Below, in pieces: positions 11,824 through 15,181 of a stretch of DNA of 64,000 nucleotides; the first letter of the stretch is position 1, and each line of letters opens with the position of its first letter. A model generated the notes under the pieces. That model was not told where the DNA came from and made no database searches. It saw only the letters and a program-made list of their open reading frames with translations. The DNA is from Bdellovibrio sp. ZAP7 (GTDB lineage: Bacteria > Bdellovibrionota > FAC87 > UBA2466): assembly GCA_945878405.1 (NCBI GenBank), contig CAMCTJ010000008.1:1-64000 (forward strand). Direction: 5' to 3'. Made by a program: the position numbers and the translations under genes.

Positions 11824-12669
11824 TTATAACCTTTCAAAGTAAAGTCGCGAGAAAACTCCATTCGAAGAATAGAAGAATCCTTGTAACTTGTTGGATCGAA
11901 GTAAGTTCTCTGGAGACACCCAAAGGACCCATTTCAAAAAACCACCTGGTTGACTTAAGGGTGCGATGAGTTCCATCGTTCCTGGTCTGGACGATGGGAT
12001 AGAACGCAAATAAATGCGATCACCAGAAGCGAGTTCAGGACCATTAGGGTTTCCCTGATCTGTGATTTCAACAATGTAGTCAGAGCCTGAGTGAGAGCCT
12101 AAAGTTTGGCGAACGGTCACTAACCACTGTCGATTAGTCCCTTTTGCGAGGAAGCGACCTTCGGCATTTTTGGCAGACTTAAAGCCATCTACGAGAATTT
12201 CTGTGGGAGCAAGTGACTTTGTGGAAAGAATTTGCTCACCAGAGAATTGAATGTCCTTTAAAAACCTAGCGTCTCGAATAATTCCCTGAGCTACCAGCTT
12301 TTTGTCCTCATAAGAAAAATTAATCTGCACTTCTGAAAAATGAGCTGAAGAAGAAGTGTTTTTTAGTGTGGGAGTTCCTAAGTAAGTATCGTCTTTTAAT
12401 TCTAATTCGTGAGACACAAAAACATAGCGACTCAGACTTTGTTCCGGATAGCCAACAGAAACTCCCAGACTGTCTTGAGTTCGAATAACAGATAAACGTG
12501 CCTGACGATTGAGTTCTGAACAATTGGGGTTTGTTCTGTCATCACAGATCATCTGGATATTGAACACCCCTTCTACTTCATTCGTAGAAATAGCCTGCGA
12601 TTTAATTCCAAAGCTTAAGAGGAGAGTCCAGGTGAGTAATTTTAAACTATGTGAAAAAGTTCTGGTCAT
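11824..12669 (-). CDS. Secreted protein of unknown function
   Basis: 281 residues with a signal peptide (KLLTWTLLLSFGIKSQA). The mature part is beta-rich with alternating hydrophobic residues and one early cysteine pair (MICDDRTNPNCSE). No family recognised. Its ATG overlaps the stop of the upstream coiled-coil gene as ATGA, so the two are translationally coupled and likely function together. It may belong to the ECF-sigma cluster. Confidence 0.7.
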   Translation of the reverse strand: MTRTFSHSLKLLTWTLLLSFGIKSQAISTNEVEGVFNIQMICDDRTNPNCSELNRQARLSVIRTQDSLGVSVGYPEQSLSRYVFVSHELELKDDTYLGTPTLKNTSSSAHFSEVQINFSYEDKKLVAQGIIRDARFLKDIQFSGEQILSTKSLAPTEILVDGFKSAKNAEGRFLAKGTNRQWLVTVRQTLGSHSGSDYIVEITDQGNPNGPELASGDRIYLRSIPSSRPGTMELIAPLSQPGGFLKWVLWVSPENLLRSNKLQGFFYSSNGVFSRLYFERL

Positions 12670-13061
12670 GGAACATCCATGGGTCGGACACAGATGGGAA
12701 TATCGGTCATTCCAGCAGCCACTTTGCTCTTAACAATCGAGAGGCGAGCTTCCGATTCCTTTATCTTTAGATCTTGTCGGACGAGCGTAATTTCTGCGAG
12801 TTGAAACTTAAGTTGGAGGTCTTGCAGTTCTTCCAAAGTGATTACTTTTTGCTCAAAAAGTTTCTCCCCACGCCGGAGATCGATTTCCGCATTTTTCTTG
12901 ATGACTTCTAAACGCTCAACTTGATTGTGATCCAAAGCCACCCACTGCTCATAGAGCTTTACGTAAGCATTGCTTTCAAGATCGTCGATAGGATTAGTAG
13001 AATTTGCAAAAGCTAGTGCCCCAAATCCAAGAATTAGTCCCAACGCCAAACGCCCCATCAT
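12666..13061 (-). CDS. Small exported coiled-coil protein
   Basis: 131 residues: signal peptide (MMGRLALGLILGFGALAFA), then a strongly helical heptad-rich stretch (~50-115, EVIKKNAEIDLRRGEKLFEQKVITLEELQDL type) resembling the periplasmic helical hairpin of outer-membrane-factor or adaptor proteins, but far too short to be one. It ends in VRPMDVP. Coupled by ATGA overlap to the secreted protein downstream and separated by 98 bp from the STN gene upstream. Confidence 0.7.
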   Translation of the reverse strand: MMGRLALGLILGFGALAFANSTNPIDDLESNAYVKLYEQWVALDHNQVERLEVIKKNAEIDLRRGEKLFEQKVITLEELQDLQLKFQLAEITLVRQDLKIKESEARLSIVKSKVAAGMTDIPICVRPMDVP

Positions 13062-13159: not shown

Positions 13160-13930
13160 TTAGAATCTTCCTGGTTGGGGGAGAGAAGTGGGAAAGAAGA
13201 CTTCTGTCTCTAGGGGGTTTTCAAGAGAGTGATGAAAAACTGGGCGTCCCATTTTTTTTCGAGAGTTCATCGGTTGCTTGAGGCAGTTCCCAGAGAAAAT
13301 ATACGAACCGTTTTTTTTGTCGCATTTCAAATTAAAAAGAAAAGCGAGATCGTTCATGACAGCATCAATCTCTTTGGGTTGTTCGGGGGCCACAGTTACA
13401 AAACTCCAGTCTACTAACTTTCCAGCGCAGTCCCCGGAAATTAAATAACTCATCGAGCCTGATTGATTTCTGATTTCATTAAGAATGTCTCTTAAAGGCA
13501 CTGATTCGGCAGAAATGGCCATAATTCTTTGGTTCGAATCATCCATGACTACTTCCAAGTAACCTCCAAGGGGTTGCGATAAAGCGGCCCGATAGAAAGA
13601 AGATTTTCCTCTAGCCAATACCCGTCCATTTAAATCTTCCACCATCTGCGCCAAAATTTCCTGAACTGGAGTTTGAAGATCAGTATTGCTGGTGAGGGTA
13701 AACACGATATTTGGCCCAGATGTTTCAGTTCGCAAGGGTGTTTCCTTGAGCGCAGGCACCATTCCCATCGATCGACTAAAAGCTTTAACTACTAGGTTTT
13801 GTGATCGCTTAGTTAAGTCAGTGTTCGGCTCGGTAACCTGAAGCTGTATAGAAGAAATGTAATGTGCGCTTGGATTGGAAAAACCAAAACTACTGAGAAC
13901 CATAAAAAAGATTAAAAGGGATCGTTTCAT
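13160..13930 (-). CDS. Periplasmic STN-domain protein
   Basis: 256 residues with a signal peptide (MKRSLLIFFMVLSSFGFS). Residues ~145-220 (ISAESVPLRDILNEIRNQSG, then a KLVDWSF strand, then AVMNDLAFLFNL and a GSYIFSG end) follow the alternating pattern of the STN (secretin and TonB N-terminus short) domain, a small signalling or assembly domain. No beta-barrel follows, so it is neither a TonB receptor nor a secretin. Its start overlaps the anti-sigma stop as ATGA, indicating coupled expression. Inference: periplasmic partner or sensor for the anti-sigma factor. Confidence 0.65.
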   Translation of the reverse strand: MKRSLLIFFMVLSSFGFSNPSAHYISSIQLQVTEPNTDLTKRSQNLVVKAFSRSMGMVPALKETPLRTETSGPNIVFTLTSNTDLQTPVQEILAQMVEDLNGRVLARGKSSFYRAALSQPLGGYLEVVMDDSNQRIMAISAESVPLRDILNEIRNQSGSMSYLISGDCAGKLVDWSFVTVAPEQPKEIDAVMNDLAFLFNLKCDKKNGSYIFSGNCLKQPMNSRKKMGRPVFHHSLENPLETEVFFPTSLPQPGRF

Positions 13931-14445
13931 CGCGCACTCCGTGTAGTTTCAAACTCAATGGTATGAAGAAGCTCGGGCTGCAGATAATGTACTTTTACTT
14001 TGTTTTTTTCCTGTTGTCGGATTTGCGCGAAAGGCCCCAGCTGCAAACTCTCTTTTTCTAGGGGTTTTTGACTAAGAGTGGAAAAGGTAACGATTCCAAC
14101 TAAAATTCCAAGTCCCAGAAAAACTGCGCCCCTGAAAAGCCAACCCTCGTTGAATAAAAGACCCTTGAGTTCCTTTTTCCTTCTTTGATTGCCTAGTTTC
14201 CATCCCTTTAAGATCAGCGTTTCATCGTTTTGGAGTCGCGAGTAGACCTTCAGTATTGAACTGGTAATTTCGGGTTCTGGCTTCAGAAAGCTTTTCCAAG
14301 CCGTTTGTGTTGCTTCAAAGCTTGTTCGGCAGTGGGAACAGATTCTTAGATGGGTCCTCAATGAATATCTGGAAACCAAAGACAGTTCTTCGGGAACGCT
14401 TACTAACCCCAAAAACTCTTCGGGTTTAGGACAACTCAGAAACAT
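13927..14445 (-). CDS. Zinc-finger (ZAS) anti-sigma factor, membrane-spanning
   Basis: 172 residues. The N-terminal cytoplasmic part has the zinc-binding anti-sigma signature: Cys5, then His32-x3-Cys36-x2-Cys39 (THLRICSHC). A single membrane helix follows at ~104-123 (GWLFRGAVFLGLGILVGIVTF), then a short periplasmic tail of ~50 residues. Such proteins bind an ECF sigma factor until an envelope signal releases it. It overlaps the sigma gene upstream by 20 bp and the STN gene downstream by 4 bp. Confidence 0.85.
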   Translation of the reverse strand: MFLSCPKPEEFLGLVSVPEELSLVSRYSLRTHLRICSHCRTSFEATQTAWKSFLKPEPEITSSILKVYSRLQNDETLILKGWKLGNQRRKKELKGLLFNEGWLFRGAVFLGLGILVGIVTFSTLSQKPLEKESLQLGPFAQIRQQEKNKVKVHYLQPELLHTIEFETTRSAR

Positions 14446-15025
14446 ACTCTCCTCCAGAAGTCAGAGGGCTAAACTGCCTGCACAGCACAGCCATTAAACT
14501 TTTTTTTGCTCGACCATAAGCTTGTCGAGTTGCATCTTCCGAAATTCCAATCTGGTCAGCCACTTCTCGGTGTGAAAGACCAAGTCCATCTCGAAGCCAA
14601 ATAATTTCAGATTCTTTTTCGTTTAAGCTCTTCATCGCGAGCTGAAGTTCCCTGAGTTCGACAGCGGCTTCAGGACGGTTCGTCTCTCTGCTGTCTATCA
14701 CAGGGCCAATCTCAGAGAGTTCTACGTAAGGTCTGGCTCTTTCGGCCGAACGGCCCGCCTTGTCGATAAGGCAGTTTCTCACCGTTTGTAAAAGATAAGA
14801 TTGAACGGCCAGGTCTTCTACGTTGTCTAATTTATCTAAGTGGAGAAGGAACTTTACAAAGGACTCTTGTAAAACATCCTCAGAGAACGGCCGGTCACCG
14901 TTAGTCTTCCAAAGTAAAAAACGCATCAAGCCAGGCGCAGTTTTTTCATAAAAAGGCAAAAAGGCAGACTGGTCCCCTTGGCGCAGTCTTTCCACCCATT
15001 GTTTCAGTAGTTTCCCGGTCCCCAT
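14426..15025 (-). CDS. ECF-type RNA polymerase sigma factor
   Basis: 199 residues. Region 2 is seen at ~45-95 (SEDVLQESFVKFLLHLDKL, then SYLLQTVRNCLID) and region 4 at ~130-185 (LNEKESEIIWLRDGLGLSHREVADQIG, an HTH). The lack of regions 1 and 3 defines the extracytoplasmic-function group. It directs transcription of a stress or envelope regulon under control of the adjacent anti-sigma factor. Divergent from rlmN across 156 bp, in which an autoregulated promoter is expected but which I cannot define. Confidence 0.9.
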   Translation of the reverse strand: MGTGKLLKQWVERLRQGDQSAFLPFYEKTAPGLMRFLLWKTNGDRPFSEDVLQESFVKFLLHLDKLDNVEDLAVQSYLLQTVRNCLIDKAGRSAERARPYVELSEIGPVIDSRETNRPEAAVELRELQLAMKSLNEKESEIIWLRDGLGLSHREVADQIGISEDATRQAYGRAKKSLMAVLCRQFSPLTSGGEYVSELS

Positions 15026-15181
15026 GGTTTTCCTGACGTTCTATAAAATGAAACGAATGAATCCCCAAAAACGTGACAAGAATCTTCCAACTCATTGACT
15101 TTATTGGTTTTAGAGAGCTCCTACAAGGGGTTATTTCTTTTTATGGCTCTTTCTCTTCAATTTCAGTTATAAGAGCGTTCC

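Follow-up and report, generated by a model that had tools for sequence, protein, structure and literature searches.

The STN fold is known from TonB receptors, secretins and FecR-type anti-sigma factors and is normally part of a larger protein. In signalling of the FecI-FecR-FecA type (PupI/PupR/PupB, FoxI/FoxR/FoxA), an STN is encoded with an ECF sigma/anti-sigma pair, and according to one report the STN domains of TonB transducers keep their anti-sigma factor from being proteolysed (PMC11637429). Another arrangement is that of Escherichia coli rpoE-rseA-rseB and Pseudomonas aeruginosa algU-mucA-mucB, in which a sigma factor, a one-span anti-sigma factor and a soluble periplasmic protein are encoded in this order. 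RseB/MucB shields RseA/MucA from DegS/AlgW and is released by a lipid signal (PMC8545111, PMC6358824). Bdellovibrio has been reported to lack rseAB (PMC3464611).

The locus studied here has the gene order of rpoE-rseA-rseB and, as in the FecI-FecR-FecA type, encodes a predicted STN together with an ECF sigma/anti-sigma pair (Table 1). It lies in the window, that is, the whole stretch of 64,000 nucleotides from Bdellovibrio sp. ZAP7 that was analysed. An earlier note had described a sigma factor, a ZAS anti-sigma factor and an STN protein as one unit coupled by ATGA; ORF coordinates and sequence bear out the genes, their coordinates, their order and this coupling. The sigma and anti-sigma genes overlap by 20 nt. 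The 4-nt ATGA overlap is identical in the homologous loci according to ORF coordinates, in one of them (L017) only if the STN gene starts at an internal ATG.

Table 1. Features of the three-gene unit, in window coordinates
Feature	Position	Strand	Basis or remark
Predicted autoregulated ECF promoter, GTCAC-N17-CGTT	15052..15077	minus	52 nt before sigma start codon
ECF sigma factor gene	14426..15025	minus	199 aa
Membrane anti-sigma factor gene, putative class I/ZAS type	13927..14445	minus	172 aa
Gene of predicted exported two-domain protein, ferredoxin-like + STN	13160..13930	minus	256 aa
ATGA stop/start overlap of anti-sigma and STN genes	13927..13930	minus	ORF coordinates
Hx3Cx2C zinc motif HLRICSHC, anti-sigma residues 32-39	14329..14352	minus	sequence; 12/13 homologues
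Conserved cytoplasmic stretch PEPEITSSILKVYSRLQNDETLILKGWKL, anti-sigma residues 56-84	14194..14280	minus	77% mean identity, genus representatives
Predicted anti-sigma transmembrane span, about residues 102-126	14068..14142	minus	Kyte-Doolittle peak 2.1
Conserved periplasmic tail PFAQIRQQEKNKVKVHYLQPELLHTIEFET, anti-sigma residues 138-167	13945..14034	minus	66% mean identity, genus representatives
Predicted signal peptide of STN protein, about residues 1-21	13868..13930	minus	K-R, hydrophobic run, no lipobox
Predicted ferredoxin-like N-terminal domain, about residues 23-115	13586..13864	minus	AF2 model, Foldseek
Predicted STN domain, about residues 124-216	13283..13561	minus	AF2 pLDDT 87, pTM 0.80; Foldseek

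Profile searches with each of the three proteins in 369 genomes of the phylum Bdellovibrionota gave orthologues of all three in an identical set of 13 genomes (Bdellovibrionota MAGs), with one copy of each; 12 of these genomes belong to one family and one to a neighbouring family. In the same 369 genomes, the STN protein had no further match at E 0.01 and the sigma factor none at E<=1e-24, and the anti-sigma profile also gave four short weak matches. The L107 protein, which resembles the anti-sigma N-terminus, was dismissed as a chance match, being an ArsA-type ATPase frame. Twelve loci, the one in the window among them, have adjacent sigma, anti-sigma and STN genes in this order. In the thirteenth genome (G013), a contig ends at the adjoining anti-sigma and STN genes, and a different contig carries the sigma gene. 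The neighbourhood for which the earlier note proposed a search is conserved, with the genes adjacent in 12 of the 13 genomes, and all STN homologues found in the 369 genomes are encoded in linkage with this sigma or anti-sigma factor. None of the three genes is present in two relatives (G002 and G010), owing either to loss or to a gap in the assembly. Judged from these searches, the three-gene unit is real and exclusive. When contigs were scanned widely with the anti-sigma alignment, 12 loci came up, almost all labelled as MAGs; the informative labels named delta-proteobacteria or Bdellovibrionales/Bdellovibrionaceae, and lakes and groundwater were the source of some. The same kind of scan for the STN protein alone, by exact peptides, gave no match, and neither did a plasmid scan.

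By sequence, the assignment of the first gene product as an ECF sigma factor is unambiguous. It matches TIGR02937 with 66 bits (E 2.7e-18), scores above cut-off for Sigma70_r2 and r4_2, and with 199 aa has the make-up of an ECF factor: regions 2 and 4, no region 3 and a length of about 200 aa. In each of the 12 upstream regions that could be read, that of the window among them, the motif GTCAC-N16/17-CGTY lies 33-67 nt ahead of the start codon that was used. After shuffling of the same 12 regions, it appeared in 0.026 loci on average, with a maximum of 1; five of the 12 loci come from two genera, so that the 12 are not fully independent. Apart from this motif, the regions upstream of the sigma gene align poorly across genera. 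Whereas the locus shares a predicted autoregulated promoter with rpoE-rseA-rseB, its -35 element differs, being GTCAC. The motif is instead nearly identical to the ECF41 promoter, TGTCACA-N16-CGTC (PMC3426412). However, ECF41 factors have a fused C-terminal regulatory extension, whereas the sigma factor studied here ends shortly after region 4 and is paired with a membrane anti-sigma factor. A genome-wide motif scan gave 22 sites, against 57 for the reversed control. Since there is no enrichment, the sigma factor's own operon is the only confident target; a wider regulon by motif scan was rejected and no other site was accepted as a target.

The unit is usually divergent from rlmN, and the genes downstream of it vary among loci. 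The earlier note had suggested as outputs the coiled-coil and secreted proteins encoded downstream (12666-13061 and 11824-12669), and had advised looking for an ECF motif upstream of 15025 and of 13061. The motif was found at the former and was absent from the latter. We discarded both genes as outputs, as they are genus-specific, are neighbours of the unit in no other genome than the congeneric G001 and have no upstream ECF motif. The product of 12666-13061 and that of L016 6547-6936 are small exported proteins, predicted to be helical, 63% identical between two congeneric genomes and weakly similar to coiled coils of outer-membrane efflux and adaptor proteins. One genus has five genomes (L021, L023, L024, L025, L026) in which the unit is followed by a conserved run that resembles reductive pyrimidine degradation, beginning about 100 nt downstream of the STN gene in four of the five. 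From sequence reading only, this run comprises an aldehyde dehydrogenase, a dihydropyrimidinase, a nitrilase/ureidopropionase, an aminotransferase and a dihydropyrimidine dehydrogenase.

The anti-sigma factor has a single transmembrane span and a 48-residue periplasmic tail. With its Hx3Cx2C motif, it fits the earlier description of a ZAS anti-sigma factor with a tail of about 50 residues. ZAS profiles stay below cut-off (zf-HC2, E 0.085, 13.4 of 22.2 bits; NF052368, E 7e-6, 25.7 of 50). The protein thus appears, from motif and context, to be a divergent class I/ZAS relative, not a profile-certified one. The zinc motif also sets it apart from the anti-sigma factor of rpoE-rseA-rseB. Class I anti-sigma factors include known non-zinc members (PMC7406223). 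One homologue (L019 7357-7920) lacks Hx3Cx2C and keeps the cytoplasmic and tail motifs. In class I anti-sigma domains, the fourth helix binds sigma region 2 (PMC7406223), and the block of residues 56-84 is likely to correspond to this helix. Mean identity between genus representatives is 32% over residues 1-52 (zinc region) and 6% in the linker preceding the tail. The far higher identity of the tail as compared to the zinc region is as expected of a docking peptide. The tail looks like such a peptide, for which the STN protein would be the obvious partner. In the FecI-FecR-FecA type, on the other hand, the anti-sigma factor belongs to the FecR family and the unit has a TonB receptor; here the tail, of about 50 residues, carries no STN, the STN being located in a soluble protein.

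The STN protein gave no Pfam or NCBIfam match in the window, and none of the 13 members matched PF07660; a direct search for an STN with sequence profiles from Pfam and the PDB also gave no match. An AlphaFold2 model, built on the 13-sequence alignment, has two domains in its full-length form (pLDDT 77). The first is a beta-alpha-beta-beta-alpha-beta domain with Foldseek matches to ferredoxin-like proteins, and these dominate the search with the full-length model. Modelled alone (residues 119-221), the C-terminal domain reached pLDDT 87 and pTM 0.80 and is predicted to contain the two beta-alpha-beta repeats of the STN/N0 fold. Foldseek with this isolated domain returned almost only STN/N0 domains: PilQ N0, BDI_1681 (4m0n), InvG/MxiD N0, PupR, PupA, GspD/XcpQ, FpvA, FoxA and PupB. 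The values are modest (TM scores 0.4-0.6, E-values 3e-3 at best) and the consistency across matches is strong. Hence, the periplasmic STN protein of the earlier note retains its STN fold in structure prediction (AF2 and Foldseek on the isolated C-terminal domain), but not as a bare STN, since a ferredoxin-like N-terminal half precedes it. When aligned by profile with the 31 secretin-type STN domains of the phylum, the domain is in register over most of its length. The alignment scored 21.3, a value that not one of 150 column shuffles attained, against 14.2 for the reversed profile. The HH-suite probability for this profile pair is only 12.6%, so that the STN case is carried by fold and not by sequence. 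Cysteines C168 and C216 of the domain are invariant in the 13 homologues and would be compatible with a disulfide in the oxidising periplasm.

FecR-type anti-sigma structures are among the best Foldseek matches, namely PupR 6ovk (rmsd 2.0, 76 columns) and the anti-sigma factor BDI_1681 (4m0n), and the predicted STN fold lies near the PupR and PupA domains. This could mean a split cell-surface-signalling anti-sigma factor of FecR/PupR-like type, whose periplasmic half has become separate as the STN protein. Such a half would reassemble on the tail and listen by STN-STN contact to another envelope protein, for instance the genome's large secretin-type protein with an STN. In PupR, too, the periplasmic domain has an STN at its end and another kind of domain before it (PMC7186176). 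However, the front domain here is ferredoxin-like instead of the all-beta CJM fold of PupR, no receptor is linked to the unit, and FecR (PF04773) has no match in the genome, so that the anti-sigma factor does not count as FecR-type. We consider this split arrangement unlikely.

The rest of the genome was surveyed for signalling parts. As the earlier note had it, there is no receptor or secretin in the unit: receptor barrels and the Pfam STN are on other contigs. Two TonB-receptor barrels are found, on contigs C4 and C7. TonB-dependent cell-surface signalling would have an STN-bearing outer-membrane receptor encoded with the sigma factor; there is none beside the one studied here. The only Pfam STN match of the genome (G000:C11:31488-31628, L001) lies inside a 671-aa secretin-type frame, and most genomes of the phylum contain frames of similar size with one STN each, probably PilQ-type secretins. 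Besides the protein of the unit, the type IV pilus secretin is probably the genome's sole STN protein. A receptor-free pathway, in which the STN protein would read this secretin by STN-STN contact and signal to the ECF sigma factor via the tail, is conceivable and very improbable in our view. As in rpoE-rseA-rseB, proteases of RseP and HtrA type are available: the genome encodes one RseP-like M50 protease, with a HELGHY motif and repeated PDZ-like segments, and two HtrA/DegS-like frames. No protease gene is linked to the operon. The third protein differs from RseB in its predicted STN and ferredoxin-like folds and has no match to the RseB/MucB family profiles of Pfam and NCBIfam.

We propose a three-part envelope-to-chromosome switch like rpoE-rseA-rseB, with the STN-fold protein in the place of RseB, and put the chance of this reading at about even. 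In the resting state, the ECF sigma factor would be held by the cytoplasmic part of the membrane anti-sigma factor, whose conserved 30-residue tail would be bound in the periplasm by the soluble STN protein and so shielded from a site-1 protease. A periplasmic signal would pull the STN protein off the tail. The exposed tail would then be cut by a protease of HtrA type, RseP would next cut in the membrane, and the freed sigma factor would transcribe its own operon from GTCAC-N16/17-CGTY and probably also a small regulon. The tail binding, protection, proteolysis, signal and promoter use are inferred. An STN-type guard is favoured because of the rpoE-rseA-rseB anatomy, the precedent for STN protection, the presence of RseP and HtrA proteases and the lack of FecR. 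Against it, the partners of known STN domains are STN domains themselves, and the anti-sigma tail is too short to be one.

The same anatomy would also suit an STN protein that acts as an activator instead of a guard, its signal-bound form binding the tail and triggering cleavage or sigma release; the STN domain of cell-surface-signalling receptors does take part in signal transmission (PMC11637429, PMC7186176). Such a role seems improbable to us, as RseB/MucB, the nearest soluble analogue at the same gene position, inhibits proteolysis, and STN contact protects FoxR (PMC11637429).

Contact between the STN protein and the tail was addressed by distance-matrix covariation, with RlmN as species baseline. 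After species correction, the sigma/anti-sigma pair, used as positive control, covaried with r 0.53 (0 of 2000 permutations). With 10 sequences only, hence in a weak test, the tail and the STN domain showed no significant covariation after RlmN correction (r 0.19, p 0.20), and the tail and the N-domain gave r 0.36 (p 0.08). The former result would suit an STN protein that is merely a co-transcribed sigma target, with its own job in the envelope and no contact with the anti-sigma factor. On the other hand, the perfect co-occurrence, one copy each in 13 of 13 genomes, and the ATGA coupling retained across genera speak against a mere target, and the unusually conserved tail needs a partner. We give this possibility little credence.

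In the literature, our search found no paper in which an anti-sigma factor has a soluble STN protein as its partner. If the proposed guard role is true, the STN fold can serve in a protein of its own that guards a membrane anti-sigma factor from the periplasm, and the logics of RseB and of TonB receptors would be merged in one system. Overall, the unit is a candidate for an envelope-stress pathway similar to RseAB in a phylum of which the model member reportedly lacks rseAB (PMC3464611).
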